The notes under the pieces are model-generated. The model did not search any database, had not been told where the DNA came from, and was given only the letters and a program-made list of their open reading frames with translations. Below are positions 2,121 to 51,072 of a stretch of DNA of 64,000 nt, piece by piece. The position numbers and the translations under genes were made by a program. Source of the DNA: Chloroflexota bacterium. Its GTDB lineage: Bacteria; Chloroflexota; Dehalococcoidia; Lucifugimonadales; Lucifugimonadaceae. The DNA is taken from the NCBI GenBank assembly GCA_018650845.1, contig JABIFF010000024.1:1-64000 (forward strand), in the 5' to 3' direction. Every line of letters starts with the position of its first letter. Position 1 is the first letter of the stretch.

Positions 2121-2200
2121 TTAGCTCCGGGCGTCGTCGAACGACTTGGTCGCCGCTGCAATCTACCCATCCCGTAGCCCCTTCCCGAAGGAAGGGGGAC
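2121..2200 (-). repeat. Two-hairpin dispersed repeat, copy A1 (inverted)
   Basis: Read on the minus strand, this copy closely matches the copy at 6531-6609. It contains hairpin 1 (CCCCTTCC...GGAAGGGG), a conserved core GGGTAGATTGCAGCG, the box ACCAAGTC, hairpin 2 (GTCGT-tcg-ACGAC) and the 3' end GCCCGGAGC. It lies head-to-head with copy A2. Nothing in it looks coding. Confidence 0.85.
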
Positions 2201-2246
2201 TGATCGCTCTAGCTACAAAATATGCCGGTTGAGCGGAGGTTTTTAT

Positions 2247-2321
2247 CCTCCCTCCCAGAGTGGGAGGGAGTTAGAGGGTGGGAGATTGCGACGCAAAGCC
2301 GAGTTACGCAAGTAACGAGCG
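2247..2321 (+). repeat. Two-hairpin dispersed repeat, copy A2 (divergent)
   Basis: This divergent copy keeps the architecture. Hairpin 1 is now CTCCCTCCC/GGGAGGGAG, followed by a core GGGTGGGAGATTGCGACG and hairpin 2 as GTTAC-gcaa-GTAAC. The stems differ from other copies but still pair. It is oriented opposite to A1, 46 bp away. Confidence 0.7.
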
Positions 2322-2337
2322 TGACTAACAAGAAAAC

Positions 2338-2380
2338 CTAAAAAAATAGCCCGCTCTCGGGGCTGAGAGCGGGCTATTTA
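2338..2380 (-). terminator. Strong terminator downstream of the archaellin-like gene
   Basis: The 15-bp perfect arms AAATAGCCCGCTCTC and their complement enclose a short loop. On the minus strand the stem runs into a T tract (complement of the A run at 2338-2346). It sits about 80 nt past the stop of the pilin gene and may work in both directions. Confidence 0.85.
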
Positions 2381-2459
2381 TAAGAAGACCTGAAGACCGG
2401 GGCCAGAAATTAGAATCGGGGCGGATTCCTCATTTAGCCTCCAAGCCGCATCACATTTT

Positions 2460-3167
2460 TTACTTCAAATCCATGACAGCATCGAGTCGAGACGGAAGGC
2501 TTCGCTCAACGTTCAACGTAGCTCCATCTGGCGGGCTCAAAGTAAGCGAGAACTTATCGTTCTTATCAAGAATCGTACCGCTCGAAAGAATACCGTTCGC
2601 ACCGTTTGAATCGGCAGTCCAATACTCAGTAGCCGAGCTAGAAGTGATCAACTCTGTTGTGTCACGAATCAAAAGCCAAACACTAATCTCAGCCTTCTCA
2701 CCCGTTTCAAGCAGGTTGTCACCGTTGTTAGTTCCTAGCCAGTCAACAGTCCAAGGAACATCACCCATGAACTGGTTCTGGTCGTTGTACGAGACGACAG
2801 TCTTGTACTCAGCACCGCTCACGAAATCGGGATCTGTAGCTGCTCCATTAGCTGTGTAAGGAGCAGTCAGGTCGACTGGTTCGCCACCAACAGCGTTCGA
2901 AACGATGAACGACACTTTGTAGATAGTGTCAGTGCCACCACGGTCTGCCTTATAAGCAACAACCGCACCACGTGGCTCAAGAGAACTCTTAGTCTCTTGA
3001 ATTCCAGCAAATATGGTCTCTTTCGACCTCTCTGAAGCGAAAATACCTGTCGATAACACGGTAAATGCAAATACCGATGCAACGACGACAAAGGCGATCA
3101 AAATGATCGCTGTCTCAAGCCCGGTAATACCGCGCTGTGACGTTTCTCGGGGGTCTGTTCTAAACAT
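2460..3167 (-). CDS. Archaellin-like / type IV pilin-like filament subunit
   Basis: From Met at 3167 this is a 235-residue protein with a short charged leader (13 residues ending in QRG). A class III (prepilin-type) processing site follows, then the hydrophobic helix ITGLETAIILIAFVVVAS with Glu at mature position 5. The rest is a beta-rich exported domain without cysteines. This N-terminus is characteristic of archaeal flagellins (archaellins, PF01917-like), which polymerise through that helix; homologues are known in some Chloroflexota. The start is chosen because GAGGAG lies 9 nt upstream of 3167. The upstream ATG-in-frame extension to 3242 would bury the leader. No FlaI/FlaJ-type motor, accessory or prepilin peptidase gene is present in this window, so the assembly machinery must be elsewhere. 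It could alternatively form a non-rotating adhesive filament. Confidence 0.82.
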   Translation of the reverse strand: MFRTDPRETSQRGITGLETAIILIAFVVVASVFAFTVLSTGIFASERSKETIFAGIQETKSSLEPRGAVVAYKADRGGTDTIYKVSFIVSNAVGGEPVDLTAPYTANGAATDPDFVSGAEYKTVVSYNDQNQFMGDVPWTVDWLGTNNGDNLLETGEKAEISVWLLIRDTTELITSSSATEYWTADSNGANGILSSGTILDKNDKFSLTLSPPDGATLNVERSLPSRLDAVMDLK

Positions 3168-3536
3168 ATAGCCTGGCTCCTCAACCGCTCCCGGGATTCT
3201 CATATCTAATAACTCCGGTAGGCGTGTAAATAAAGTGGCCAACCCACCGCCGATCCGTCAATTGGCAGTCCGGTGCAAAGGCCATATATCAATAGTTATC
3301 ACCTACCCAATCCACCTACTGCCCTCATGGAATCGCCCAACCGCTCCGATGGGTTCACTACCAATGTGGGCAGCCACGCGAACGCCTGTGGAAGTTTGCC
3401 CGTGCCTCGGCATCTCATTGAGATTGCTCCACACTCTTCCAACACCTGAAGGCAGAAAACAGGGTCACGAAATTGAGCCAACAAACAGCGAGGAGCGGCA
3501 CGTGAGAAGAGTTAAGAACCGGGATCGACGTTCGAG
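3168..3536. other. Intergenic region upstream of the pilin gene
   Basis: No gene is supported here. Open frames on both strands lack ribosome-binding sites and recognisable composition. It separates two minus-strand genes and should hold the pilin promoter. No terminator for clpS is evident. Confidence 0.5.
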
Positions 3537-3869
3537 CTACCAGCCAGGCTGCACATCACACCCAAGCTGAAGCACTCGCAGTGCATCTCTATACTTCAGC
3601 GCCTGCTCTTTACCGCACAACGTAACGACGCCCTTACCAGTGTTGTGAGCTTCCAGCATGATCAACGTAGCTTCGGTGGTCGACATCTCAGGAAGAGTCT
3701 TTATCAACGCCCAGATCACGTAATCCATCGAGTGATAAGTATCGTCGAACACCACCACCGCCCAGCGATCTGATCTGCCGCCGGAGGTTTCGTGAACCTC
3801 TGCAGGTGTCGAAATGCGTTCAGTATCTGACTCAGCAAGCGACTTTAGATCGCCCACGCTGTAGCGCAT
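3537..3869 (-). CDS. clpS: ATP-dependent Clp protease adaptor ClpS
   Basis: This is a 110-residue protein. Its C-terminal 75 residues match the ClpS core: VVVFDDTYHSMDYVI (the D-D-x-x-x-x-M/x-x-V segment that lines the N-degron pocket), the helix around LIMLEAHNTGKGVV, and the KEQALKYRDAL helix with LGCDVQPGW at the end. ClpS delivers proteins with destabilising N-terminal residues to the ClpA/ClpC unfoldase of the Clp protease. The first 30-35 residues are a variable N-terminal extension, as in the family. The frame stays open to 4106, but that part overlaps the divergent enolase-superfamily gene. ATG 3869, with AAGGGCGG upstream, is therefore taken as the start. No clpA or clpC is adjacent. 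Confidence 0.92.
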   Translation of the reverse strand: MRYSVGDLKSLAESDTERISTPAEVHETSGGRSDRWAVVVFDDTYHSMDYVIWALIKTLPEMSTTEATLIMLEAHNTGKGVVTLCGKEQALKYRDALRVLQLGCDVQPGW

Positions 3870-3972
3870 GACACGCTCGCCGCCCTTGACACCGATGCTC
3901 AACGGGAGGAATCTTCTCCGGCAATCATTTTTACTAGCCGGTGCAATCACTCGAAACGAAAGTCCTTCATAA

Positions 3973-5124
3973 ATGCGAATTACCGACATCAAGCCATTCC
4001 CAGTATGGGTTGGCACACGAAACCAAATGTTGGTCAAAGTGGAAACAGATGAAGGCATATACGGCTGGGGAGAATCTGGGCTTTCAAGCCGAGAAATCGG
4101 CGTCAAAGGAATCGTAGAGCACTACCGAGAGTTCCTGATTGGGCGCGACCCAATGCAGCGCGGTGCTCTCTGGCAAGAAATGTATCGTAGCCAGTACTTC
4201 GAGGGTGGTCGAACGCTAACCGCAGCAATTTCGGCAATTGATATAGCTCTTTACGATATCGTCGGCAAAAAGCTCGGCGTACCCGTATACGAACTACTCG
4301 GCGGCAAGCACCGCAACTATGTTCCTACATTCGCAACTGGCGGCGGCAACTCACCCGAAGAAATGGTCGACATCGCTCAGAAGATGATCGCCGAAGGCTT
4401 CGACTGCTTCCGCCTGCATCGCGGTTACGAAAAGGAATCTGAAGGAATCTTCGAACCACGCGAAGCTATTGCAAACGCTGCCGAAGGTCTGATCAAAGCG
4501 CGAGAAGTTCTGGGACTTCGACCCGTAATTGGTTACGACTTCCACCACCGGCTATCCGTCGCCGAAACAGCCTCGTTCTGCCAAATGATGCCCGAACACA
4601 CCCTCGACTTCCTTGAAGAACCTATCCGGGACGAAACGCCCGAAGCATACGAAGTGCTTCGCACAATGACGAACATGCCGTTCGCACTTGGTGAGGAGTT
4701 CGCATCGAAGTGGCAGTTCCTTCCTTATATCGAAAAAGGACTCGCCAACTACATTCGAGTCGATATCTGCAACGTCGGCGGAATCACCGAGGCAATGAAA
4801 GTCGTCGGTTGGTCGGAAGCGCACTACATCGATCTAATGCCGCACAATCCGCTCGGACCAATCTGTGTTGCTGCGACCGCACACATGGGAATGGCTGCAG
4901 CAAACTTCTCATGGCTCGAAATTCGTGAATCCGCTGGCGAAGACAACGGCTTCTACTCGAAGGAAGTCTTCCCAGTTCAACCTGAAGTGGTACCGGGCAA
5001 GGTGACTGTGCTCGACAAACCCGGACTCGGTGTTGAAGTCGATGAAGCAGCCCTCACCGAGCCATTCCAGTGGTCAGAGATGCCACACCTCAAACGAAAC
5101 GACGGATCACACACCAACTGGTAA
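3973..5124 (+). CDS. Enolase-superfamily dehydratase, DgoD/ManD-like (paralog 1)
   Basis: This 383-residue enzyme of the mandelate racemase/muconate lactonizing family has an N-terminal capping domain and a (beta/alpha)7-beta barrel. Metal ligands are readable as D189 (in GYDFHHR), E215 (LEEP) and E241 (GEEF), with H191 and H291 (MPHNPLGP) as the likely acid/base pair. The spacings (26, 26 and 102 residues, with D-x-H) equal those I recall for E. coli D-galactonate dehydratase (D183/H185/E209/E235/H285). An acid-sugar dehydratase (galactonate- or mannonate-like) is therefore the best guess. It is the first of three tandem paralogs with nearly identical active sites. The start overlaps nothing; the divergent clpS begins 103 bp upstream. 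The exact substrate is not predictable. Confidence 0.9.
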   Translation: MRITDIKPFPVWVGTRNQMLVKVETDEGIYGWGESGLSSREIGVKGIVEHYREFLIGRDPMQRGALWQEMYRSQYFEGGRTLTAAISAIDIALYDIVGKKLGVPVYELLGGKHRNYVPTFATGGGNSPEEMVDIAQKMIAEGFDCFRLHRGYEKESEGIFEPREAIANAAEGLIKAREVLGLRPVIGYDFHHRLSVAETASFCQMMPEHTLDFLEEPIRDETPEAYEVLRTMTNMPFALGEEFASKWQFLPYIEKGLANYIRVDICNVGGITEAMKVVGWSEAHYIDLMPHNPLGPICVAATAHMGMAAANFSWLEIRESAGEDNGFYSKEVFPVQPEVVPGKVTVLDKPGLGVEVDEAALTEPFQWSEMPHLKRNDGSHTNW

Positions 5125-5146
5125 GAATCAACCGCCAACAACAAGT

Positions 5147-5221
5147 CCTCCTTCCTTCGGGAAGGAGTTAGAGGAAGGGTAGATTGCAGCGGGTCCCAAG
5201 TCATCCGATGACGCCCGGACC
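5147..5221 (+). repeat. Two-hairpin dispersed repeat, copy A3
   Basis: Hairpin 1 is CTCCTTCC/GGAAGGAG, the core is GGGTAGATTGCAGCG, hairpin 2 is GTCAT-ccg-ATGAC and the end is GCCCGGACC. It fills the junction between paralogs 1 and 2 and ends 20 nt before the ATG of paralog 2. Confidence 0.85.
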
Positions 5222-5241
5222 AATTTACGCAATTCACGCAA

Positions 5242-6393
5242 ATGCATATAACAGACGTAATCGCTTATCCAGTTTGGGTCGGCTTCAGAAACCAGATGCT
5301 CGTCAAGGTTGAAACCAACGAAGGCATCTACGGTTGGGGCGAATCCGGACTTTCGGGTCGCGAACTTGGCGTAAAAGGAATTGTTGAACACTATCGAGAA
5401 TTTCTTGTTGGCAAAGACCCAATGGCACGTGGAGCGCTCTGGCAAGAGATGTACCGCAGTCAGTATTTTGAAGGCGGACGAACTCTAACAGCGGCAATTT
5501 CCGCAATCGATATTGCACTGCATGACATCGTCGGTAAAAAACTTGGCGTGCCTGTATACGAACTGCTTGGCGGCAAACAACGAAACTACGTTCCGACGTT
5601 CGCCACAGGAATCGGCGACACCCCAGAAGAAATGATCGACACTGCTCAGGCTATGATCGCTGAGGGGTTCGATTGCTTCCGACTACATCGTCAGGCTCTA
5701 AGCGAAAATAACCGCGAGTATGAGCCACGTGAAGCCATCGCTCTTACTGCTGAAGGCTTGATCAAAGCAAGAGAAGTTCTCGGAACTCGACCCGTAATCG
5801 GATACGACTTCCACCATCGTCTCTCTGTCGCTGAAACCGCTTCGTTCTGCCAGATGATGCCGAATCACACTCTCGATTTCCTCGAAGAGCCGATCCGTGA
5901 CGAAACGCCAGAAGCCTACGAAGCGCTCCGCAAGATGGTCACTGTGCCGTTCGCTATTGGTGAAGAGTTCGCCTCGAAGTGGCAGTTCCTCCCTTATATC
6001 GAACGCGGCATCACTCAGTACGCACGAATCGATGTCTGCAACATCGGTGGCCTTACCGAAGCCATGAAAGTCGTTGGCTGGGCAGAAGCTCATTACATTG
6101 ATCTCATGCCGCACAATCCGCTCGGACCAATATGTGTAGCTGCGACAGCACACATGTCGATGGCATCCGGAAACCTATCATGGCTAGAAATACGTGAATC
6201 TGCTGGTGAAAGCAACGGCTTCTACGACAAAGAAATATTCCCAGTTCAGCCTGAAATAGTTCCTGGAAAAGTAACGGTTCTCGATCGACCGGGACTCGGT
6301 GTCGAAGTCGATGAAGCATCGCTATCCGAACCATTCAAATTCTCAACCGGCAGTCCACTACGCCGCAAAGACGGATCACTCACCAATTCATAA
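5242..6393 (+). CDS. Enolase-superfamily dehydratase, DgoD/ManD-like (paralog 2)
   Basis: This 383-residue protein has the same length as its upstream neighbour and aligns without gaps over most of it. It keeps D189, H191, E215, E241 and H291. Differences cluster around residues 120-160 (GIGDTPEEM... and RQALSENNREYEPRE), the barrel-proximal region that often sets substrate specificity in this superfamily. The C-terminal segment IRESAGESNGFYDKE matches paralog 1 closely, so paralogs 1 and 2 probably act on related acid sugars. A two-hairpin repeat occupies the 117-bp upstream gap, and no strong Shine-Dalgarno sequence precedes the ATG apart from the GGA at the repeat end. Confidence 0.9.
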   Translation: MHITDVIAYPVWVGFRNQMLVKVETNEGIYGWGESGLSGRELGVKGIVEHYREFLVGKDPMARGALWQEMYRSQYFEGGRTLTAAISAIDIALHDIVGKKLGVPVYELLGGKQRNYVPTFATGIGDTPEEMIDTAQAMIAEGFDCFRLHRQALSENNREYEPREAIALTAEGLIKAREVLGTRPVIGYDFHHRLSVAETASFCQMMPNHTLDFLEEPIRDETPEAYEALRKMVTVPFAIGEEFASKWQFLPYIERGITQYARIDVCNIGGLTEAMKVVGWAEAHYIDLMPHNPLGPICVAATAHMSMASGNLSWLEIRESAGESNGFYDKEIFPVQPEIVPGKVTVLDRPGLGVEVDEASLSEPFKFSTGSPLRRKDGSLTNS

Positions 6394-6439
6394 ACACAGC
6401 CAATCAATTAATACTAATTAGCAACTAGGCAACAACAAT

Positions 6440-6490
6440 CCCTCTTCCTTCGAGAAGAGGTTAGTCAAAAGGAGATTTCCGGATACGCAC
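6440..6490 (+). repeat. Two-hairpin dispersed repeat, truncated copy A4a
   Basis: This copy keeps hairpin 1 (CCTCTTCC-ttcga-GAAGAGG) and the following TTAG...GGAGATT, then diverges; hairpin 2 is not recognisable. It lies about 40 bp upstream of the complete copy A4b in the same orientation. Confidence 0.6.
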
Positions 6491-6530
6491 AACTGCACAT
6501 ATCGCCTCTGAAGCAAACAATCGCTTCGGT

Positions 6531-6609
6531 TCCCCTTCCTTTGGGAAGGGGCTATGGGATGGGTAGATTGCAGCGAGCGACCAAGTCACGCCAGTGACGC
6601 CCGGAGCTA
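6531..6609 (+). repeat. Two-hairpin dispersed repeat, copy A4b
   Basis: This is a full copy with hairpin 1 CCCCTTCC/GGAAGGGG, core GGGTAGATTGCAGCG, box ACCAAGTC, hairpin 2 GTCAC-gcca-GTGAC and 3' end GCCCGGAGC. The terminal GGAG lies 10 nt from the ATG of paralog 3, so the repeat appears to supply its ribosome-binding site. Confidence 0.88.
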
Positions 6610-6616
6610 ATCACGC

Positions 6617-7762
6617 ATGAAAATTACAGATGTAAAACCATACGCAGTCTGGGTCGGTCGACGAAACCAGATGCTCGTAAAAATAGAAACCGACGAAGGC
6701 ATATACGGTTGGGGCGAATCCGGATTCTCCGGTCGTGAACTCGGCGTAAAAGGAATCATGGAACACTACCGTGAATTCCTAATCGGCCGAGACCCCATGA
6801 GCCGTGGCGGACTCTGGCAAGAGATGTACCGCAGCCAATACTTTGAGGGCGGACGAACCCTCACAGCTGCCATCTCAGCCATCGATCTTGCCTTACACGA
6901 CATCGTCGGCAAGAAGCTCGGCGTACCTGTTTACGAACTACTCGGCGGCAAGCACCGACACACCGTTCCCGTGTTCGCAACAACTGCCGGACCTTACGGC
7001 CCCGACATGATCGAACAGGCAAAAGAATTCATGGGCGCCGGAATCAACGCCTTCCGACTTTCCTACGACAACATGGATATCCAGAGCGGTGGACTATTCG
7101 AGCCACGCGAATCAATCGCTAACTCGGCTGAATGGCTAATCAAAACCCGTGAAGCACTTGGAAATCAGGCGATTCTCGGAGTCGACTATCACCACCGATT
7201 GTCACCAGCAGAAACAGCAAGCTTCTGCCAGATGATGCCTTCTCACACACTCGACTTCCTCGAAGAGCCGATCCGTGACGAATCGCCAGAAGCCTACGAA
7301 GCACTTCGCAAGCTAACCGACGTTCCGTTCGCTATCGGTGAAGAGTTCGCATCGAAGTGGCAGTTCCTGCCTTACATCGAACGCGGCATCACTCAGTACG
7401 CACGAGTCGATATCTGCAACGTTGGTGGATTCACCGAATCAATGAAGGTCGCAGGATGGGCAGAAGCTCACTACATCGATCTCATGCCGCACAACCCACT
7501 CGGACCTATCTGCACAGCAGCATCGGTTCACCTGGCAGCAGCGGTACCAAACTTTGCATGGCTCGAAGTCAACATGGAACGTGCTAACGATCCCGACCGC
7601 AGCGTATTCACCGAACAGGTCGAATTCAACGGCAGCGGCTACGTCGTCAACGACCGACCTGGTCTTGGTGTCGAAGTGGACGAAAGCAAACTCACGGAGC
7701 CGTTCAAGTTCTGGGAAGCTCCGCACCCACACCGCGGAGACGGATCACACACCAACTGGTAA
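6617..7762 (+). CDS. Enolase-superfamily dehydratase, DgoD/ManD-like (paralog 3)
   Basis: This 381-residue third tandem copy has its catalytic set shifted by one residue: D190 and H192 in GVDYHHR, E216 in LEEP, E242 in GEEF and H292 in MPHNPLGP. The N-terminal 115 residues are close to paralogs 1 and 2. Residues 120-165 (TTAGPYGPDMIEQ..., SYDNMDIQSGG) and the stretch from about 330 to 350 (MERANDPDRSVFTEQ) have diverged. These loops shape the active site in the family, which suggests a changed substrate. Its Shine-Dalgarno GGAG is the end of the preceding repeat copy. Annotated as a probable acid-sugar dehydratase; substrate unknown. Confidence 0.9.
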   Translation: MKITDVKPYAVWVGRRNQMLVKIETDEGIYGWGESGFSGRELGVKGIMEHYREFLIGRDPMSRGGLWQEMYRSQYFEGGRTLTAAISAIDLALHDIVGKKLGVPVYELLGGKHRHTVPVFATTAGPYGPDMIEQAKEFMGAGINAFRLSYDNMDIQSGGLFEPRESIANSAEWLIKTREALGNQAILGVDYHHRLSPAETASFCQMMPSHTLDFLEEPIRDESPEAYEALRKLTDVPFAIGEEFASKWQFLPYIERGITQYARVDICNVGGFTESMKVAGWAEAHYIDLMPHNPLGPICTAASVHLAAAVPNFAWLEVNMERANDPDRSVFTEQVEFNGSGYVVNDRPGLGVEVDESKLTEPFKFWEAPHPHRGDGSHTNW

Positions 7763-7798
7763 GCAAATAACTATCGTCTCAACCGACGATGAACCTCT

Positions 7799-7911
7799 TC
7801 CCGACCAGAGCGGAGGGATCGTGATCGAATCATTTCGAACGCCATCTCTCCGCTTCGGTCGAGACGAGAAAGTAAATAAGCACACTGTCATTCTGAACTC
7901 GATTCAGAATC
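7799..7911 (+). repeat. Palindromic repeat elements (families C and B)
   Basis: GACCAGAGCGGAG (7803 on) pairs imperfectly with CTCCGCTTCGGTC (ending 7860). The string CCCGACCA-xx-GCGGAGGGA recurs at 42449. It is followed by TGTCATTCTGAA with a hairpin ATTCTGAA-ctcga-TTCAGAAT (7890-7910). A related TGTCATCCTGAGG element lies at 42394 next to the second C copy, so both families occur together twice. Confidence 0.65.
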
Positions 7912-7970
7912 GGTAGCCAAAGTGATCGATCGTCCGACTCACCTACAGATAGAGAATGCCAACCCGTTGA

Positions 7971-8001
7971 ATGTGATTCTGAATCAAGTTCAGAATCACA
8001 T
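7971..8001. repeat. Perfect inverted repeat
   Basis: The arms ATGTGATTCTGAA and TTCAGAATCACAT (13 bp, perfect) enclose a 5-nt loop. The inner 8 bp are the same as in the hairpin at 7890-7910. It could act as a terminator for paralog 3 (no T tract), as an operator for fabI, or be a REP-like element. Confidence 0.8.
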
Positions 8002-8094
8002 CGAATCGTTCATACACCAGTTTGCCGTCTTCGCCTGTTACATTTGGTTCATTCGAAAAAAACCGGCTACTCAAGCGGAAGGCTAACTACAGCA

Positions 8095-8874: not shown

Positions 8875-8904
8875 GCGAGCCACAGAAATCAGGCACAGCG
8901 ACCG

Positions 8905-9252
8905 ATGACAGCAGTTCCAACCGGACTCTCGGCGACACGATCACTCGTCGTCGAGGGCTCCAAGTTGTACAGCCCAACCGGCAAGCCAGAGCACTCGGTG
9001 CTCTCAAGCCCGGCGATGATCATGGAAATGGAACTCGCCTGCGTAGAAGCTGTGCAGGGACATGTTGAAGCATCGGTTGGCTTCCACGTCGATGTAAAAC
9101 ACATCGCCCCAACTCCAGCCGGTGAAACCGTCGAAACTACGGCAACGCTAATCGACATTGACGGTAAAAAGCTCCGATTCAAAGTCGAGACAAAATACGG
9201 CGAAATCGTAGTTGGAACCGGCACTCACCGACGAGCAATAGTCGACCTCTAG
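8905..9252 (+). CDS. Hotdog-fold acyl-CoA thioesterase, FlK-like
   Basis: This 115-residue protein resembles the fluoroacetyl-CoA thioesterase (FlK) branch of the hotdog superfamily. Conserved elements are SSPAMIMEMELACVEAV (the helix of the fold) and HVDVKHIAPTPAG. By alignment with FlK's T42/E50/H76 triad, the equivalents here are S35, E43 and H66, so Ser replaces Thr. Most bacterial members with this signature are general short acyl-CoA or thioester hydrolases; fluoroacetate resistance should not be assumed. It sits directly downstream of fabI, compatible with a housekeeping role in acyl-thioester turnover. Confidence 0.85.
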   Translation: MTAVPTGLSATRSLVVEGSKLYSPTGKPEHSVLSSPAMIMEMELACVEAVQGHVEASVGFHVDVKHIAPTPAGETVETTATLIDIDGKKLRFKVETKYGEIVVGTGTHRRAIVDL

Positions 9253-9365
9253 ACAAGGCTTATCGCACAGCGCTCCACACGCGTAGTTCCCACAAACTCG
9301 TACAAAAACTTCTGGCTGTTGAAATACCGGTTCCGTGTACGGTGATCTAGTCGCACTATCCACAA

Positions 9366-12637: not shown

Positions 12638-12643
12638 TCAGCT

Positions 12644-31018: not shown

Positions 31019-31095
31019 TGGTGGGCGATGTAGGATTCGAACCTACGACCCCCTGCTTGTAAGGCAGGTGCTCTAACCAACTGAGCTAATCGCCC
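31019..31095 (-). tRNA. tRNA-Val (anticodon UAC), copy 2
   Basis: A 77-nt cloverleaf on the minus strand: acceptor GGGCGAT/ATCGCCC, anticodon stem CCTGC/GCAGG with loop CTTACAA (anticodon TAC), T-loop TTCGAAT, encoded CCA. It is identical in sequence to the copy at 31600-31676. Confidence 0.96.
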
Positions 31096-31358
31096 AAACA
31101 CGCTGGTAAATGATCCATCTGCCCGCCCATAGCTACGTGAGTAACGTCTAAGCGGTTTCAAATGCCCGTCACCGGACTCATCATCAACCAGTTCTTCAAT
31201 TGTCGAAATATGACCTTCGTTTATCGCGAGCGCCGATTCTACACGGCGAGCGCCACGAACGATCAGTCATATTTTCCGGCGATGCGGAATGACGGGGATG
31301 TCACTGGCATCAATAGCGCCCCAAAATACCAAATATCAAGGGGCGCCAAGAGAGAATA

Positions 31359-31435
31359 TGGCGCGCTTGGCGGGATTCGAACCCACGACCTCAGCCTTCG
31401 CAGGGCTGCGCTCTATCCAGCTGAGCTACAAGCGC
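31359..31435 (-). tRNA. tRNA-Arg (anticodon GCG)
   Basis: A 77-nt cloverleaf on the minus strand: acceptor GCGCTTG/CAAGCGC, discriminator G, anticodon stem CAGCC/GGCTG with loop CTGCGAA, encoded CCA. The anticodon reads GCG, which decodes CGC. Most bacteria instead read CGN with an ACG anticodon modified to inosine, so this is unusual. Confidence 0.9.
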
Positions 31436-31487
31436 ACAAAGTGTGGACTAATCCACGTACTGAATTTTACTTCAATAAACACAAATA

Positions 31488-31573
31488 TGGTGCCGAGGGC
31501 GAGAGTCGAACTCGCACGCCCTTACGGGCACTACGTCCTGAACGTAGCGCGTCTGCCATTTCGCCACCCCGGC
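31488..31573 (-). tRNA. tRNA-Leu (anticodon CAG)
   Basis: An 86-nt class II tRNA on the minus strand: acceptor GCCGGGG/CCTCGGC with one G-U, anticodon stem CTACG/CGTAG with loop TTCAGGA (CAG), a long variable arm (TGCCCGTAAGGGCG), and encoded CCA. Confidence 0.95.
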
Positions 31574-31599
31574 ACGAGGTTTCAGATACAAAATCTGAA

Positions 31600-31676
31600 T
31601 GGTGGGCGATGTAGGATTCGAACCTACGACCCCCTGCTTGTAAGGCAGGTGCTCTAACCAACTGAGCTAATCGCCC
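31600..31676 (-). tRNA. tRNA-Val (anticodon UAC), copy 1
   Basis: A 77-nt cloverleaf on the minus strand, identical to the one at 31019-31095, with anticodon TAC and encoded CCA. The spacers around the two copies differ, so only the tRNA itself is conserved. Confidence 0.96.
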
Positions 31677-31723
31677 GAAGATTCAATTGTACTCGCCGAC
31701 TTCAGGAATAACGGCTTAATGAA

Positions 31724-31800
31724 TGGTAGCGATGGTGGGACTTGAACCTACGACCTCACGCTTATGAAGCGCGCGCTCTAACCGGCTGAGCTACATCGCC
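31724..31800 (-). tRNA. tRNA with CAU anticodon (Met likely)
   Basis: A 77-nt cloverleaf on the minus strand: acceptor GGCGATG/CATCGCT, anticodon stem CGCGC/GCGTG with loop TTCATAA (CAT), encoded CCA. It lacks the mismatched first pair and the three G-C pairs of an initiator tRNA. Elongator Met is most likely; Ile2 with lysidine-modified CAU cannot be excluded. It is the first tRNA of the minus-strand cluster. Confidence 0.9.
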
Positions 31801-40831: not shown

Positions 40832-40859
40832 TAACACGGGATAGGCGCAGGAGCTCATA

Positions 40860-42354: not shown

Positions 42355-42387
42355 TCCAAGTCCCCTACAACGACTGGTCACAATCAG

Positions 42388-42484: not shown

Positions 42485-42499
42485 ACTCAACCAAAACAA

Positions 42500-42534: not shown

Positions 42535-42554
42535 CAAAAATCTCTAAAGAGAAA

Positions 42555-43028: not shown

Positions 43029-43086
43029 ATAAATATCTACGTTTGCCTAGGCGAGAAACGGCGCGTGAAAACTCAGTAAAAAAATT

Positions 43087-44409: not shown

Positions 44410-44432
44410 TTTAGTTCGCCGAAAGCCTGTCG

Positions 44433-46865
44433 TTATTGAGCTCGAAGTTCAGCACCAAGTTCCTTGGATAGCTGTTTCAGAATCTGACCTTCGATTTTGC
44501 CAATCTGGTCGGCAGTAAGTGTCTTGTTTGGCGACTGGTAAACGAGCCGAACTGCGACAGCCTTCTTGCCATCGGGAACGCCCTTACCTTCGAACAGATC
44601 AAACACTGTCGCAGCGGAAACGATTCGGTTCCGATTTGCGATATCGGTGATCTGCCCAGCAGTTACGCCGGTATCGACGATCAATGAAAGATCTCGATGT
44701 GAAGCTGGAACACGAGGAAAATCTTCGAACTTACTTGATCCAACGCCTTTGGCGGTTTCAAGAACTTTCAAAATCGCAGCGAGATCAAGCTCGAACATGG
44801 CGACCGTCTCGACTTCCGCATCGAATCGAGAGAACACTTCGCCAGAAACTTCACCAACCACACCGATCACAGCATGATTTGCAGCCTTCACCTTGATGAT
44901 GGCTGTTCGCCCTGCAGCAAATGTGGCATCTTCGCCAACTTCAAATTCAGGCTCGATTCCAATATCAGCTAGCACCGCTTCGACAGCACCTTTGGCGTCG
45001 TAGAAATCTGATGCATCACTCGACTCGTCCCAATGCAAATCGTTTCTCGGGCCTGCAAACGCCCCTGCAACCATCTGTCGTTCTTCCGGAAGTCCTTCGC
45101 CATAATCGAGGAATACACGACCTGCTTCGAACAACGCAATCGGGCCTCGCCAAGTTCGAGAATTGCGAGCAACAGTCTCAAGAATCGCTTCACGAAGCGT
45201 TCGTCGCATCACGGCAAAATCAGCCGTAATAGGATTGCGTAGCTTCAGTGCCGATGCGGTTTCGCTCGGCAAGTTCACACGATCTTCGCCATCTGCCGTT
45301 GTAGCCGCATACGAAATCATCTCTCGCATCCCGGCTTGAGCCAGCGAATCGCTCACTCGAATACGCAAGTCCATCTCAGGCTGCGGCTGCCACTGAGGAG
45401 GGCGACCCGAAAGCGTGGTTGTCGGAATATTGTCGTACCCAACGATTCGAGCTACTTCTTCAATAATGTCTTCAGGAATCGAAACATCAGGGCGCCAGTA
45501 AGGAATGCTCACATCCCAGCCATCTGCGTCTGATTTCAGTTCAAATCCAAGATTTCCAAGTGTTGTTTCGATTAGGTTCGATTCGAACTCAACACCAAGC
45601 ACTCGAACAATGTGATCTCGATCCAAGCGAACGCTTTCCTGCTCTTGCCCCTTGCTCGGGTAAACATCGATGATCCCCGAAGCAGCTTCACCACCAGCAA
45701 TCTCAAGAATCAGCTTAGTAGCTCGTCGAAGCCCAACTTCACTTAGTCCTGTGCGAAGGCTCTTCTCAAACCGCAAAGTCGCCTGACTACCTAGCTCAAG
45801 CCCACGAGCAGTCTTGCGATTGTTCACACCGTGGAACGTAGCCGATTCAAGCAGAACCGTATTCGTAGATTCAGAAATCTCAGAGTTTGCTCCACCCATG
45901 ACACCCGCAAGCCCAATGCTGCGTTCAGGATCTGCGATCACCAACATCTCAGACTCGAGTTTGCGTTCCTTGTCATCGAGCGTTGTCAGCTTTTCGCCAG
46001 CCGCCGCACGTCGAACAATAATCTTGTGATCGACCACCTTGTCGTAGTCGAACGCGTGCAATGGCTGTCCGAGTTCGAACATCACAAAGTTTGTAATGTC
46101 GACCAAGTTGTTGATAGGTCGCTCGCCAAGTGCGATCAACCTATCTTGCAGCCACTTGGGTGAAGGGCCAATTTTTACGCCTTGAATCACCGAAGCTGTA
46201 TAGCGAAGACACAGGTCAGGATCGGCGATCTCAACTGAAGCCAACGTGTTCACATCCGGCCCCGTCGCCTCAAAGCTAACGTCAGGCTGCTTCAGCGGGT
46301 TGCCTGTGATTGCCGATACATCACGAGCCACACCCACAATGCCCAAGCAATCAGGACGATTAGGTGTCAGCTCAATATCAATAACAGATTCGCCAAGTAC
46401 TTCACCAATTGGCGTGCCAATCGCTAAGTCGTCATCAAGAACCAAAATACCGTCGTGATCGTCGCCAATGCCGAGCTCCCTAACGGAGCAAACCATTCCT
46501 TCAGAAACGACTCCGCGAATCTTCGATCGCTTTAGCTTCTTAGTCTTACCGGGTTCCTCGGCGTAAGCGTCCTGAAGCACAGCACCAATCGATGCGTATG
46601 CAATCTTCTGACCTTCAGCCACGTTCGGAGCGCCGCAAACAACTTCCGCTTCGCCATTGCCGTGATCAACAGTAACCAAACGAAGTCGATCAGCATCAGG
46701 ATGCTGCGCAACCGCCTTAACGTGACCAACTAACACGTTGTCGATCCAGCCAGTGCGCTCGATGTCTTCGACCTCGTTGCCGCCCATAGTTAGGCGATGT
46801 GCGAGATCGTCGAGACTCATATTGATGTCTACGTACTCACTCAGCCAGGAAACAGGAACCTTCAT
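44433..46865 (-). CDS. pheT: Phenylalanine--tRNA ligase beta subunit
   Basis: This 810-residue protein has the full bacterial PheT layout. The start is MKVPVSWLSEYVD, followed by the EMAP-like tRNA-binding domain (about 40-150, LVTVDHG...VVCGAPNV). The B3/B4 editing domain (about 210-370) contains LVDITNFVMFELGQPLHAFD, and the B5 domains span about 400-475. The catalytic-core-like region includes FEAGRVF (about 585-590). The C-terminal anticodon-binding FDX-ACB domain spans about 718-808 (FPRVPASHRDLSLIVD). With PheS it forms the (alpha-beta)2 synthetase. The partner gene lies 118 nt upstream. No T-box-like motif precedes pheS. Confidence 0.97.
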   Translation of the reverse strand: MKVPVSWLSEYVDINMSLDDLAHRLTMGGNEVEDIERTGWIDNVLVGHVKAVAQHPDADRLRLVTVDHGNGEAEVVCGAPNVAEGQKIAYASIGAVLQDAYAEEPGKTKKLKRSKIRGVVSEGMVCSVRELGIGDDHDGILVLDDDLAIGTPIGEVLGESVIDIELTPNRPDCLGIVGVARDVSAITGNPLKQPDVSFEATGPDVNTLASVEIADPDLCLRYTASVIQGVKIGPSPKWLQDRLIALGERPINNLVDITNFVMFELGQPLHAFDYDKVVDHKIIVRRAAAGEKLTTLDDKERKLESEMLVIADPERSIGLAGVMGGANSEISESTNTVLLESATFHGVNNRKTARGLELGSQATLRFEKSLRTGLSEVGLRRATKLILEIAGGEAASGIIDVYPSKGQEQESVRLDRDHIVRVLGVEFESNLIETTLGNLGFELKSDADGWDVSIPYWRPDVSIPEDIIEEVARIVGYDNIPTTTLSGRPPQWQPQPEMDLRIRVSDSLAQAGMREMISYAATTADGEDRVNLPSETASALKLRNPITADFAVMRRTLREAILETVARNSRTWRGPIALFEAGRVFLDYGEGLPEERQMVAGAFAGPRNDLHWDESSDASDFYDAKGAVEAVLADIGIEPEFEVGEDATFAAGRTAIIKVKAANHAVIGVVGEVSGEVFSRFDAEVETVAMFELDLAAILKVLETAKGVGSSKFEDFPRVPASHRDLSLIVDTGVTAGQITDIANRNRIVSAATVFDLFEGKGVPDGKKAVAVRLVYQSPNKTLTADQIGKIEGQILKQLSKELGAELRAQ

Positions 46866-46983
46866 GCTATTTTCTCGTTTATCGGAATACTGGTGCCAGA
46901 TTTATGGCGTGGGTATTACAGGTGAAATGGAATTTGAAAGATCGATTTTCGATCTCGAACAATTGACGGCGCATTCGCCGCTT

Positions 46984-47991
46984 CTAAAACTGAGTTAGGA
47001 ACCGCAGATCGTTCGAGAAGAAATGACGGATGTCAGTAATTTCATTTCGCAACATAGAAATTCGCTCAGGCCCCATTCCGAAAGCGAAACCCGTGTACTT
47101 CGTCGAATCGTAACCAGCGTTTTCGAGAACCTTTGGGTGCACCATTCCAGCCCCCATGATTTCGAGCCAGTTGCCCTGCCATTCGATAGACATATCAACG
47201 CCCGGCTCAACAAATGGGAAGAAGTCGCAACGGAATCGGACCTTCATAGAAGGACCAAATATTCGACGTGCAAATTCGTACAACGTTCCTTTTAAGTCGG
47301 CGAACGTAATGCCCTCATCCACAGCCAATCCCTCGACCTGATTGAAGTGCCACTCGTGAGTAGCGTCGGTCGATTCGTATCGGTAGCACTTGCCGGGAAC
47401 AATCACCCTAATCGGCGGATCATTCGTTTCCATTGTGCGCGCCTGCATGGGCGACGTATGCGTCCTTAGAAGAACATCATTGTGCGTATCGTCATCTACC
47501 CAAATCGTGTCCCACTGGTCACGCGCCGGGTGATCCGCTGGAATGTTGAGCATGTCGAAGTTGTACTTCTCAAGCTCAACCTCAGGACCCTCAATCGTCT
47601 GGAATCCCATCTCGTTGAACGCCTGTGTGATCTCCCGAATCATCTGCGTCGAAGGGTGAAGCCCCCCATGCGACGGTTTCCGCCCGGGCAACGTAATGTC
47701 GATTGACCCCACCGGAGCCTGAGACGACTTCGACTGGTTCACTCGCTCTTCAAATAATGATTCAAGTTCACCACGTAGGCGGTTTGCGGCCGCACCAACA
47801 ACTTTGCGTTCGTCGATCTCGAGCGAGCCAAGTCCACGCAAAAGCCCGGTTAGGCGGCCCTTGCGGCCCATAAAGTCGACTCGCCACGCCTCAAGCTGAT
47901 CGTTCGAATCTGCTGAATCTAACGCTGCGACGGCTGCGAGTTTCAGTTCCTCTACAGTTTCGCCTGTCTGGGTACCTTCAGTTTTTGGCAA
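46984..47991 (-). CDS. pheS: Phenylalanine--tRNA ligase alpha subunit
   Basis: This is the catalytic alpha subunit, about 335 residues from the chosen start. The N-terminal coiled-coil arm (about 5-95) is followed by the class II core. Motif 2 lies near RVIVPGKCYRYESTDATHEWHFNQVEGLAV, here quoted in two overlapping parts (GKCYRYE, HEWHFNQVEG). Motif 3 is GFAFGMGPERISMLR. The phenylalanine pocket residues FFPFVEPG are present. The frame is open to a GTG at 48054, but that N-terminus does not resemble the family. TTG 47991, with AGG 9 nt upstream, fits better, so the start is uncertain. It is first in the pheS-pheT pair. Confidence 0.93.
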   Translation of the reverse strand: MPKTEGTQTGETVEELKLAAVAALDSADSNDQLEAWRVDFMGRKGRLTGLLRGLGSLEIDERKVVGAAANRLRGELESLFEERVNQSKSSQAPVGSIDITLPGRKPSHGGLHPSTQMIREITQAFNEMGFQTIEGPEVELEKYNFDMLNIPADHPARDQWDTIWVDDDTHNDVLLRTHTSPMQARTMETNDPPIRVIVPGKCYRYESTDATHEWHFNQVEGLAVDEGITFADLKGTLYEFARRIFGPSMKVRFRCDFFPFVEPGVDMSIEWQGNWLEIMGAGMVHPKVLENAGYDSTKYTGFAFGMGPERISMLRNEITDIRHFFSNDLRFLTQF

Positions 47992-48054
47992 CGACACTAA
48001 CCTGACATAAATGATGGTGAACCGCGGCGATTGCAATCTAGAGAGCACTTCCAC

Positions 48055-48473
48055 GGTGATTTTCGACTCGAAATTATAGTCGATTAATATGAGATTACCG
48101 GCATTTGTCGCAAACTCATCGCAATCTCAACATCAGTTGGGAAACAGCCAATCTAGGTCTCCATAGTGGATTTAAGCGGATTTCGAGCATGAATTTCCAA
48201 AATCACACAAATGAACGTAATCCCACACGTTACCGGATATTTACTACGATATTCGTAACAATCTCCACCTGAACCGTTACGATTCCATCATCTACCCCTT
48301 CTTGAGTGAACGGCGGTTACTGCCATCGACTCGCATCTTGCCCTTCTGAACTAGCGACAAGTTCAAAAATGTGTAGTAGGGTCGAGCCACGATCAACGAT
48401 CTACCGCAGTGACGCACGATGCGCACAATCTCAAGCGGTACAACTAATATCCGAATTATCGGGGGGGTCCAAT
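48055..48473. other. Intergenic region between pheS and the zinc-ribbon gene
   Basis: No RNA gene, repeat or further gene is supported in these 419 bases. They contain the divergent promoters. A frame open from 48306 into the small gene lacks a start with a ribosome-binding site. Confidence 0.5.
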
Positions 48474-48617
48474 ATGGAAGCCTACTGCATGAAGTGTAAG
48501 ACCAAGCGTGAGATGCAGAACGCAGAGCAGATCACTATGAAGAACGGTCGCCCCGCAACTCAGGGCACATGCCCGGTTTGCAGCACAAAAATGTTCAAGA
48601 TTGGTAAAGCTTCGTAA
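48474..48617 (+). CDS. Small zinc-ribbon protein (DUF5679-like)
   Basis: This 47-residue protein has two Cys-x2-Cys knuckles, CMKCKTKREM (residues 5-8) and CPVCSTKMF (about 33-36), spaced like a zinc ribbon. Between them is the conserved-looking ITMKNGRPATQGTC. This resembles DUF5679, a family of very small proteins common in Chloroflexota and some Actinobacteria, sometimes placed near topoisomerase or ribosomal functions. The start at 48474 is supported by a run of seven G about 6 nt upstream, an unusually G-rich Shine-Dalgarno sequence. A clear terminator follows 22 nt after the stop, so it is a monocistronic gene, probably well expressed. Confidence 0.85.
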   Translation: MEAYCMKCKTKREMQNAEQITMKNGRPATQGTCPVCSTKMFKIGKAS

Positions 48618-48639
48618 GCTAGCCGCTATTGAATTAATT

Positions 48640-48668
48640 GACCCGTGCTTCGGCACGGGTCTTTTTTT
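48640..48668 (+). terminator. Terminator of the small zinc-ribbon gene
   Basis: GACCCGTGC-ttcg-GCACGGGTC forms 9 pairs capped by a UUCG tetraloop and is followed by seven T. This is a textbook intrinsic terminator. Confidence 0.95.
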
Positions 48669-48771
48669 GCTCAAAAATAGTTCGCTACGTTCTCTACCTC
48701 CATCTTCAAGTAGTAAGCTTCGGGCGCAAATATCACCAGTACTCGTTACTTAGCTTTTGGAACTTTCTTAT

Positions 48772-49698
48772 ATGCAGACCGTGCCGTTCGGAAAAACAGG
48801 ATTTAATGTCAGCCGACTCGGAGTCGGTCTTTCAGAAATTGGCTCACAGCTATCAGTCTCTGATCAAGATCAAGCAACGAAGATGCTGAATACCGCTCTC
48901 GATAGCGGCATCAACTTCCTCGACACTTCAGCCTGCTACGGAATATCCGAACTTCTCACAGGAAAAGCAGTTGCCGAACGTCGAGACGACTACTTCCTAG
49001 CAACCAAAGCCGGGCACATCGCTCTTGGCGCAGACGGCGAAGAATGGACATACCAGGCGGTTTCCGAAGCTATCGACCGCAGCTTGCGACTGCTCCAAAC
49101 CGATCACGTCGACCTCGTTCAGCTCCACTCCTGTGGAATCGATGTTTTAGAACGTGGTGATGTAATTCGTGCGCTTCAGGACGCCCAGAAAGCCGGAAAG
49201 ACTCGATTCTTCGGTTACTCAGGCGATAACGAAGCCGCACACTGGGCCGTCGATTCAGGGCTGTTTGCAACTCTACAAACCAGCTACAACCTAGTTGAAC
49301 AGCGCGCACGAACTTCTGGGCTCCTTGAGAAAGCCACGGCACAGGGCATGGGAACGATCATCAAGCGACCTATCGCTGGTGGTGTCTGGGGCAAGTCTCG
49401 ACCCGAGGCTGGAATCGACGATGCAGGTCGGTACAACACGCCATATTTGATCCGTGCCAAAGCGATAAGAGCCCTCGGTGAAATCACCGACGAACCAGCC
49501 GACGGAATTCTTACCGCACTCGGATACACACTCGGCGATCCTAACGCCAACGTTGCCATAGTAGGCACAACAAACCCATCGCACATGGCGACCAATATCA
49601 AGCAGATCGACAACGATCTACCAATCCCAGAATCGGTAATAGAAGAACTCAAAAGCCGATTCGAACAGCTCGACAAGGATTGGTCGCAGCGCACTTAG
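48772..49698 (+). CDS. Aldo/keto reductase family oxidoreductase
   Basis: This 308-residue (beta/alpha)8-barrel NADPH-dependent oxidoreductase starts at ATG 48772, with GGAAC upstream. The frame also allows a TTG at 48757. The catalytic tetrad is D51 (NFLDTSACYG), Y56, K79 (LATKAGH) and H119 (VQLHSCG). Cofactor-site elements YNLVEQ and IVGTTNPSHMATNI are present. It belongs to the broad bacterial branch near D-threo-aldose or L-galactose dehydrogenases, so sugar oxidation is a plausible role. It opens the second catabolic block of the window, followed by two mandelate-racemase-type genes. Confidence 0.92.
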   Translation: MQTVPFGKTGFNVSRLGVGLSEIGSQLSVSDQDQATKMLNTALDSGINFLDTSACYGISELLTGKAVAERRDDYFLATKAGHIALGADGEEWTYQAVSEAIDRSLRLLQTDHVDLVQLHSCGIDVLERGDVIRALQDAQKAGKTRFFGYSGDNEAAHWAVDSGLFATLQTSYNLVEQRARTSGLLEKATAQGMGTIIKRPIAGGVWGKSRPEAGIDDAGRYNTPYLIRAKAIRALGEITDEPADGILTALGYTLGDPNANVAIVGTTNPSHMATNIKQIDNDLPIPESVIEELKSRFEQLDKDWSQRT

Positions 49699-49784
49699 GT
49701 GCCAGTGGCACACTCTCTATTGGTTTGTGCCTTCAGTGAACATCGATTCCAAAATTTTCAAAAAGAAAGCCTCATAAACAAAAA

Positions 49785-50972
49785 ATGAAAATCGATCGAA
49801 TAGAAGTACGATTCGTTGAAGCTGAACTCGATGAGCCGTTTGGATGGTCGCAGCGCTGGACCAACACCCGCAGCGTCGTAGTACTCAAAGTTTTCACCGA
49901 CGACGGAGTAATCGGCTGGGGCGAAACTTATGGATCGCAAGATTCAATTGCAGCCATCGCCTCAGTAGCGCGCTCAGCTATTGGCGAAGACCCAGCTAAC
50001 ATCTCGCAAATCTGGCACAAAATTCACCGTGCCACTTTCCAGAGCCACATGTACGCAGGTGCCGCGGTGATGGCCGCTAGCGCTATCGACACCGCCCTCC
50101 ACGACATCGTTGGCAAATCCACTGGAAAGCCTGTTGCTGAAGTTATGGGTGGCAGACTTCACGATTCGATCGCCGTATACGCCACAGGGCTCTACTACGT
50201 CGACAACTACGCACTGCAGCCACACCTCGACGAAGCGGCCGGCTACGTTGAACAGGGCTTCGGTGGCATGAAGATGAAGGTCGGGGCGCTCTCGCTTAAA
50301 GAAGATGCCGACCGCATCCGAGCAACGCGGGAAGCTATCGGACCTGATGTGCGTTTGATGTTCGACGCCAACGAATCGTACGATCCTTCAAGCGCACTAA
50401 CATTTGCCAACATGGTCGCCGATCAGGACATCACATGGTTCGAAGAGCCGTGTGCGTCTAGAGATTTCATTGCGAACAAGATGGTTCAAGACAAGTCACC
50501 CATTCCTATTTCAGGTGGCGAAAGCCTTTCTACCCGCTGGGAATTTGCGCCTCGATTCGCCGAACGCACGTTCGACATCGTTCAGCCCGACATCTGCGGA
50601 GTAGGCGGACCTTCCGAGATGCACCGTGTAGGACTGATGGCACAAGCGTTCGGAATCAAATTTAACCCGCATTTCTGGGGCACAGGAATTAGCTTTGCGG
50701 CGGCACTTCATTCGCTGGCGCTACAGCCAATAGGTCAAATTGGCCAAACAAACATTCCGTACCAAAACGAATCGGTGCTTGAGTTCGATCAGACACCTCA
50801 CCCTGTACGCGAAAACCTAACCGAGCCGTTCTTCACTCAAAAGAACAGCCGAGTAGAAGTGCCAACAACACCCGGATTAGGAATCGAAATCGACGAAGCA
50901 GTCCTAGAAAGATTCACAAAAGGCGAAGTCCTAGTAGTAGAAACATCGTCCGATACACAACCGTTTTTCTAA
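49785..50972 (+). CDS. Mandelate racemase-type enolase-superfamily enzyme
   Basis: This 395-residue enzyme carries the complete mandelate racemase catalytic set. K163-x-K165 lies in MKMKVG, metal ligands are D194, E220 and E246, and the Asp-His dyad is D269 (QPDICGVGG) and H296 (FNPHFWG). Each position is exactly one less than the Pseudomonas putida mandelate racemase numbering I recall (K164/K166/D195/E221/E247/D270/H297). It therefore has both an S-specific Lys base and an R-specific His base, and could racemise or dehydrate a 2-hydroxyacid or acid sugar. Capping-domain loops (SQRWTNTRS, GSQDSI) differ from true mandelate racemase, so the substrate is open. It has its own 86-bp upstream gap; a hairpin repeat follows. 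Confidence 0.92.
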   Translation: MKIDRIEVRFVEAELDEPFGWSQRWTNTRSVVVLKVFTDDGVIGWGETYGSQDSIAAIASVARSAIGEDPANISQIWHKIHRATFQSHMYAGAAVMAASAIDTALHDIVGKSTGKPVAEVMGGRLHDSIAVYATGLYYVDNYALQPHLDEAAGYVEQGFGGMKMKVGALSLKEDADRIRATREAIGPDVRLMFDANESYDPSSALTFANMVADQDITWFEEPCASRDFIANKMVQDKSPIPISGGESLSTRWEFAPRFAERTFDIVQPDICGVGGPSEMHRVGLMAQAFGIKFNPHFWGTGISFAAALHSLALQPIGQIGQTNIPYQNESVLEFDQTPHPVRENLTEPFFTQKNSRVEVPTTPGLGIEIDEAVLERFTKGEVLVVETSSDTQPFF

Positions 50973-50996
50973 ATCGCCAATCGGAATCCACAAGTC

Positions 50997-51072
50997 CCTC
51001 TTCCTTCGGGAAGAGGTTAGGAGAAGGGTAGACTGCGACGCGCGACCAAGTCGTTCGACGACGCCCGGAGCC
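50997..51072 (+). repeat. Two-hairpin dispersed repeat, copy A5
   Basis: Hairpin 1 is CCTCTTCC-ttcg-GGAAGAGG, the core is GGGTAGACTGCGACG, then ACCAAGTC, hairpin 2 GTCGT-tcg-ACGAC and the end GCCCGGAGCC. It again fills an enolase-to-enolase junction and ends 14 nt before the downstream ATG. Confidence 0.88.

Follow-up and report, generated by a model that had tools for sequence, protein, structure and literature searches.

Insertion sequences of the IS200/IS605 group carry a hairpin near each end. According to the available text of a review (PMC5371812), these elements favour the lagging-strand template, which ties their orientation to replication. Among the repetitive extragenic palindromes (REPs), the GTAG type has been reported in Chloroflexi and the CGTC type has no known transposase; the 2013 survey, in the portion available, does not settle how the CGTC repeats are mobilised (Di Nocera et al., 2013, PMC3733652). 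Here, we describe an element of two hairpins in a 64,000-nt stretch of a Chloroflexota bacterium of the family Lucifugimonadaceae (assembly GCA_018650845.1, contig JABIFF010000024.1, positions 1 to 64,000; this whole stretch is referred to as the window), where several copies adjoin enolase-superfamily genes. The SAR202 bacteria are known for an expansion of the enolase-superfamily enzymes. The element forms a genome-wide family with two covarying stems, and its copies are oriented with the replication fork and not with the neighbouring genes. On balance, the evidence leans slightly towards a non-autonomous REP/MITE-like (MITE, miniature inverted-repeat transposable element) dispersed repeat of the genus Candidatus (Ca.) Lucifugimonas (SAR202), moved via lagging-strand single-stranded DNA, with one version of its 3′ half perhaps secondarily co-opted.

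Anatomy and copy number

The element is ∼80 bp long and comprises two hairpin modules, H and then T, in a fixed head-to-tail order, as read from the matches in the source genome, which is available as draft contigs. In the H module, a hairpin (for example GTCCTCCCCC-loop-GGGGGAG) precedes the sequence YTAGAGGG. The T module starts with AGAYTGC, continues with a linker and ends in a hairpin that has two versions, T1 (CCAAGTC-stem-GACGCCCGG) and T2 (GAGCCGAGTC-stem-GACGAGCGCGACTAACG). T is often reiterated head to tail behind a single H, as in H-T2-T1-T2 at C14:857-1030 of the source genome. The arrays that we examined are head-to-tail and not typical inverted dimers, with few inverted neighbours, such as the window copies at 2119 (minus strand) and 2245 (plus strand). 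Some copies have GTAG between H and T and others have GGAGA, while CGTC, read on the opposite strand, is part of the T stem; neither tag is at the unpaired foot of a stem.

The R1 matches and their alignment place hairpins near both ends of the element, and the 5′ flank of H has a partial consensus A-Y-C-N (A in 85, C or T in 112, and C in 80 of 139 copies). No target-site duplication of 3–4 nt was seen above shuffles in the 93 of 139 copies with parseable ends, the other 46 being dropped. A DDE-type MITE was considered and rejected, as the element ends are not mutual inverted repeats by eye and there is no target duplication at 3–4 nt.

To count copies, model R1 (H+T) was built from 14 copies of the source genome, and model R2 represents T alone. 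In the source genome, the counts are lower bounds, as 150 of 704 R1 candidates and 150 of 1495 R2 candidates were scored. At least 94 R1 matches have E ≤ 1, at least 60 of them with ≥40 bits; R2 yields at least 84 matches at E ≤ 1, of which 78 lie within an H+T match and all 84 are at most 16 nt from one. The complete relative Ca. Lucifugimonas marina JH1073 (G013; CP046147) has 107 R1 matches at E ≤ 0.01. Overlap with predicted genes is rare (6 of the 106 L. marina copies with context, and two copies in the source genome), the copies being otherwise intergenic. Copies occur within ∼1 kb of the ends of several source-genome contigs (C3, C6, C9, C12, C14, C20, C23); they may break the assembly, and copy numbers in draft genomes may be underestimates.

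The core GGGWRGAYTGC occurs four times in the window against 0.22 expected, and GGGTAGATTGC has 17 occurrences in the source genome against one for the reversed control. Together with the covariation shuffles described below, this rules out chance or artefact as the origin of the repeat. Nor is the match limited to a few places by chance, the outcome that a preliminary description of this DNA had named as refuting: the family spans the genome. That description assigned the element to no named family, in agreement with the lack of any Rfam match at gathering score at the window copies. In the literature on REPs and other palindromic repeats in Chloroflexi and SAR202, on repeats of Lucifugimonas and on replication-related orientation, seen in partial texts, we found no description of the element.

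Covariation of the stems

The covariation of both stems noticed in the window was confirmed on 139 copies from the two genomes, with 292 cells of two-sided change and none of 500 shuffles scoring as high. Overall, 96.9% of 1726 cells pair, and 12 of the 13 pairs show two-sided changes, in an alignment fitted to the model, which flatters the covariation figures. Shifting the partners by 1–3 columns lowers the covariation score from 0.43 to 0.07–0.13, and in a 45-copy alignment made by MAFFT alone the inner stem of T is paired in 99.1%. Some copies (GGTCC/GGACC, GTGCC/GGCAC) pair throughout the outer T1 stem, whereas most have two mismatches there; 65.9% of the cells of this stem pair.

The covariation had been taken to indicate selection on structure. 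The pairing is indeed kept; selection on RNA, however, is not shown by covariation alone. A constraint on one RNA strand is expected to favour G.U over A.C, and the 1726 cells contain 26 G.T and 20 A.C, that is, about equal numbers; therefore, there is no sign of RNA-level constraint. This parity and the mismatch-free stems (89 of 139 copies across the 13 pairs) are as expected of a DNA-level palindrome. The pairing may thus be maintained in the DNA itself, either through selection acting on a folded strand or through mutation between the arms.

Orientation relative to replication

The origin and terminus of L. marina were placed by GC skew only. Skew values are above zero from ∼3.0 Mb across coordinate 0 up to ∼1.5 Mb, apart from a single negative stretch at 690 kb; the remainder of the chromosome is mostly negative, with values near zero at 1.8–2.03 and 2.35 Mb. 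In this frame, 63 of the 72 copies with ≥40 bits are lagging-sense, as are 31 of 33 with ≥60 bits and 92 of 107 with ≥20 bits. The bias is also seen outside the dense 580–800 kb region (25 of 33), which holds 39 of the 72 copies with ≥40 bits. Predicted genes, used as a control in sampled L. marina DNA, are nearly balanced (153 plus and 169 minus on the R arc, 134 plus and 108 minus on the L arc; 54% lagging-sense). By local GC skew, lagging-sense copies number 59 of 76 in the source genome (≥25 bits, elements masked) and 27 of 29 in G009 (15 stretches chosen among its listed R1 matches); lone H modules in L. marina, too few to judge, are lagging-sense in three of three cases.

Copies between co-directional genes separate replication from transcription. 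In L. marina, 21 of 24 copies flanked by lagging-strand genes and 19 of 20 flanked by leading-strand genes are lagging-sense, the latter being antisense to the genes; in the source genome, the numbers are 19 of 19 and 12 of 15, respectively. As the element is lagging-sense even between leading-strand genes, transcription does not set its direction. Copy density correlates with |GC skew| (Spearman 0.55 over 60 L. marina stretches, 40 of which had been chosen for holding copies).

In the 580–800 kb region of L. marina strand skew is extreme (reaching 0.23 for GC and 0.21 for TA), and contig C20 of the source genome is similar. By Pfam, such stretches carry ordinary and some core genes, e.g. ribosomal protein L1, and so are not simply a mobile island. 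The available text of the L. marina cultivation paper (PMC10444878) reports regions of anomalous GC skew that overlap predicted islands; "repeat" and "palindrom" are absent from its main text, as far as available.

A second repeat, TTAG/GTAG-ATCCTGAA..TTCAGGAT-GAC, which resembles CGTC REPs, is found beside several H+T copies (e.g. L. marina 586811 and 592435; source genome C14:47950-48450). It has no lagging-sense bias, with 4 of 15 in the sampled L. marina DNA, one palindrome being counted on both strands, and 12 of 21 in the source genome.

Distribution among relatives and occupancy of orthologous sites

With E ≤ 0.001 and stricter filters, R1 matches were found in 14 of 18 genus relatives, from 3 to 77 per genome, and none were found in the other four. 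Ten of 41 more distant relatives also had matches, the best with E = 1.2e-6. When the best locus of each genome was considered (E ≤ 0.1), T was held by 13 of 14 loci from the genus, the G017 locus being without it, and by none of ten from outside. Three of the latter, from order-level relatives, were read and have H without T; lone H occurs in the source genome as well. As far as these best loci tell, T seems to be confined to Ca. Lucifugimonas. A loose T1 pattern matched at least 113 stretches across many phyla. Of 34 such stretches given to R2, 21 of the 23 labelled Chloroflexi or Dehalococcoidia matched and none of the 11 others did. Viral carriage was considered and rejected: 21 viral contigs fit the loose pattern, and R2 found the T module in none of them.

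For 36 of the 60 source-genome copies with ≥40 bits, a copy adjoins the L. marina orthologue of one or both flanking genes (both in 22 cases). The window enolase array was compared in 15 relatives including L. marina, where 7 of 20 junctions carry a copy and 13 are empty (10–95 nt); a sixteenth array locus, L205, has one gene only and hence no junction. Together, these counts imply that the element is old at many places, yet neither universal nor needed there. The variable occupancy gives no support to the suggestion that the element mediated tandem duplication.

Association with enolase-superfamily genes

The preliminary description placed a copy in every junction between consecutive enolase genes. 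This holds for all three junctions in the window, but genome-wide only 6 of 15 tandem junctions have one (same strand, domain starts <1.5 kb apart, counted from coordinates; one junction is cut by a contig end). The enrichment upstream of COG4948 genes, proposed there as a check, was found. Among the 33 genes with a same-strand copy within 60 nt upstream of the start, 18 encode enolases (9 of 15 in the source genome, 9 of 18 in L. marina). The backgrounds are 77 PF13378 matches in ∼2012 estimated genes and, in L. marina, 80 COG4948 genes or 2.8% of coding sequences (CDS) in the available text of PMC10444878, from which we estimated ∼2860 CDS. Fisher's test yields 5e-10 and 3e-10, respectively.

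Neighbour counts, from which copies overlapping predicted genes were dropped (74 of 76 kept in the source genome, 89 of 95 in L. marina), are given for the source genome and L. marina in this order. Enolases constitute 9/38 and 8/43 of same-strand neighbours on the 5′ side, 0/34 and 3/46 of opposite-strand neighbours on the 5′ side, and 0/24 and 0/46 of opposite-strand neighbours on the downstream side. Judged by replichore or by local skew, all 18 start-side enolase cases are lagging-sense, the skew being weak for three on C9. On a rough reading of the source-genome contigs, enolase genes overall seem to be lagging-sense more often than expected.

The T versions are distributed unevenly. By script, the module beside starts (n = 33) is T1 in 25 cases, T2 in 6 and unclear in 2, and beside stops it is T1 in 9, T2 in 18 and unclear in 9. 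The script misread some copies; by eye, the T1:T2 ratio is 24:9 beside starts and 10:24 beside stops, where 2 of 36 cases have no clear T. In 22 of 33 cases, GGAG precedes the start by 6–16 nt, the starts coming from a simple gene finder that gives a small bonus to GGAG-like motifs. The RNA folds of three window leaders are stable, with z-scores against shuffles of −3.1, −1.6, and −0.2, so that only the first stands out. Ten of 13 leader-like copies have a counterpart in L. marina, compared with 26 of 47 other copies. The enrichment at starts makes co-option of the element at some enolase starts plausible; the enolase link is real but secondary.

Copies in the window

All five full copies and the partial one reported earlier were recovered by R1 (Table 1). 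Their positions stand, with the amendment that the first copy is on the minus strand, opposite to the others. The uniform anatomy ascribed to them applies to most copies, but the one at 2245 lacks ACCAAGTC and GCCCGGAGC and has the second 3′ half, T2 (AGCCGAGT...GAGCGTGACTAA).

Table 1. Element copies and enolase-superfamily genes in the window.
Feature	Position	Strand	Evidence and remarks
Full H+T1 copy between convergent genes	2119..2200	-	R1 99.3 bits
Full H+T2 copy (variant 3′ half)	2245..2330	+	R1 64.7 bits
Enolase-superfamily gene 1	3973..5124	+	PF13378
Full H+T1 copy, outer T stem wholly paired (GGTCC/GGACC)	5145..5226	+	R1 97.7 bits
Enolase-superfamily gene 2	5242..6393	+	PF13378
Degenerate copy, H half kept, T half decayed	6438..6519	+	R1 21.2 bits, partial
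Full H+T1 copy	6529..6612	+	R1 93.5 bits; match ends 4 nt before start codon at 6617
Enolase-superfamily gene 3	6617..7762	+	PF13378
Enolase-superfamily gene 4	49785..50972	+	PF13378
Full H+T1 copy	50994..51076	+	R1 90.6 bits; match ends 10 nt before start codon at 51087
Enolase-superfamily gene 5	51087..52196	+	PF13378

The first copy corresponds to an L. marina copy at 2799549 between orthologous genes, and no counterpart of the second was found there. The copy at 5145 is located between enolase genes 1 and 2, and the L. marina junction after the orthologue of gene 1 is 27 nt long and has no element. The L. marina orthologue of gene 3 is also preceded by a copy, and the counterpart of the last copy, at 2848921, is of the T2 type.

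The window also contains a T-box leader (RF00230, 105 bits) at 60886-61164, upstream of an open frame at 61265, and a cluster of five tRNA genes at 31022-31800 on the minus strand, two of which (31022 and 31603) are nearly identical.

Origin of the element and comparison with known systems

The replication-bound orientation argues against a primary role as a leader and for spread through lagging-strand single-stranded DNA. In this view, the element would have moved in folded, single-stranded form, being excised from the lagging-strand template and reinserted into it in the manner of IS200/IS605, by an enzyme that was either overlooked here or has since been lost; T arrays would then have expanded locally. 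The two hairpins, the polarity, the partial A-Y-C-N flank and the lack of a clear target duplication fit this kind of route, and we put the chance that the element works like IS200/IS605 at about even. Secondarily, T1 copies landing a few nucleotides before starts, mainly those of lagging-strand enolase-superfamily genes, would supply a GGAG box, located in the 3′ arm of T, and may be retained as ready-made leaders whose ribosome-binding site is masked by the hairpin. An extended version, in which a non-Y1 enzyme moves the bipartite element, T1 is domesticated as a shared enolase leader, and the mobile repeat helped to wire the SAR202 enzyme expansion, seems improbable.

Several observations weigh against spread as a mobile repeat. 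The Y1/RAYT transposase domain Y1_Tnp (PF01797; RAYT, REP-associated tyrosine transposase) has no match in any of the 19 genus genomes, including the complete one, and 6 of 14 control genomes match. One defining feature of IS200/IS605 thus fails, and membership in that group is not shown. We noticed no autonomous copy with a transposase gene between H and T, and no dedicated search for one was made. No clean pre-insertion site was found, the relatives being too diverged between genes for a base-by-base alignment of empty sites, and 2 of the 13 empty junctions hold possible T remnants (by eye, at L198 and L207). Flank matches of 5 nt have p = 0.03, so that a short target duplication is possible. 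The polarity is weaker in the source genome, where 17 of 76 copies run opposite. Finally, L. marina counterparts of 36 of the 60 copies imply slow turnover, and as many sites are shared, the genomes do not provide independent polarity counts, so that p-values overstate independence. Anatomy and copy number, together with the dispersal between genes and the variable occupancy, support the earlier suggestion of a REP/MITE-like mobile palindrome, but the Y1/TnpA-like transposase that was to prove it is absent from all 19 genus genomes.

Other movers were also considered. RAYT/IS200 membership was rejected, as PF01797 is absent from the source genome and the genus. Spread by reverse transcriptase was rejected as well, RVT_1 occurring in one of 19 genomes (G017) and in neither the source genome nor L. 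marina. Among 93 predicted proteins of the L. marina 580–800 kb region (3 of 96 were omitted for length), no transposase was seen among the 25 families listed of 119 and the 25 listed of 61.

Lack of a mobiliser is also what one expects if palindromes are amplified and kept perfect by replication itself, through template switching and one-strand correction of quasi-palindromes, with polarity and compensation as by-products. The head-to-tail T arrays, the near-perfect stems with few intermediates and the correlation of density with |GC skew| agree with this, but such an origin explains neither how one H+T composite came to occupy dozens of unlinked sites nor the fixed order of H and T, and we find it doubtful. 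A structured cis-regulatory messenger RNA leader of COG4948 genes, in which T1 masks the GGAG ribosome-binding site and senses a ligand or a protein, other copies being strays, is unlikely. It would account for the share of enolases among start-side genes, for the prevalence of T1 at starts and for the more frequent sharing of leader-like copies with L. marina. Yet only a minority of copies are leaders; in relatives, 13 of the 20 junctions in this array are empty, as are 9 of 15 junctions between tandem enolases of the source genome; four of 18 genus relatives have no match; and enolases are also frequent on the same-direction 5′ side, which a leader does not explain. Moreover, G.T is not above A.C, no Rfam family matches the copies, and some of the 18 enolase cases are orthologous pairs, so that the independent events are fewer. 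The leader offered in the preliminary description thus finds no support as a primary role, given the empty junctions and an orientation that follows the fork between opposite genes.

The strong polarity in three genomes, with genes as a balanced control, could also reflect a polar replication signal selected for its direction, such as a site of lagging-strand priming or fork pausing. Given the very uneven spread, with over half of the stronger L. marina copies in one region, the variable occupancy and the four relatives with none found, we consider this very unlikely. Integron attC-like recombination sites, which are likewise folded, in a single orientation and between genes, are largely refuted: no integrase exceeds the cut-off in any of the 19 genus genomes, sub-threshold matches being present in all 14 controls too, the copies are dispersed genome-wide, and the element does not match the usual attC core sites.

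REP-like repeats that lack a transposase have long been puzzling, and a family that follows the fork is a direct lead to entry via single-stranded DNA of the lagging strand. A host with a closed genome is in culture (Lim et al., 2023, PMC10444878, as far as its available text goes), which makes insertion, replication direction and leader function testable; that text gives an average nucleotide identity (ANI) of at least 99.9% for the L. marina strains JH545, JH1073, JH639 and JH702. The bias towards enolase starts is a test case for whether repeats helped to recruit expression signals to an expanding enzyme family.

In comparison with known systems, the element shares with the GTAG/CGTC REPs (Di Nocera et al., 2013, PMC3733652, available portion) short palindromes in many intergenic copies, heterogeneous stems and partial clustering, and, with the CGTC type, the lack of a known transposase. 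Unlike them, it consists of two dissimilar hairpins in a fixed head-to-tail order over ∼80 bp, has its tag motifs away from the unpaired stem foot, occurs mainly in direct arrays instead of inverted dimers and shows strong replication polarity; the RAYT gene usual for GTAG REPs is absent from the genus genomes (0 of 19). The H half has the design of the CCCTCTCCC...GGGAGAGGG-CTAGGGTGAGGG hairpin repeat, found in three order-level relatives and the source genome, which differs in having no T half (0 of 10 loci outside the genus). As in structured 5′ leaders such as riboswitches and RNA thermometers, T1 copies stop short of ATG by a few nucleotides and have GGAG within an arm of the hairpin, while most copies of the element are not leaders and are indifferent to gene direction. 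IS200/IS605 and their non-autonomous derivatives differ from the element in that the genus lacks a Y1 transposase and no autonomous copy was noticed (no dedicated search); what the element has in common with them is the lack of a detected target duplication at 3–4 nt, the hairpins near its ends, and an orientation that follows replication.

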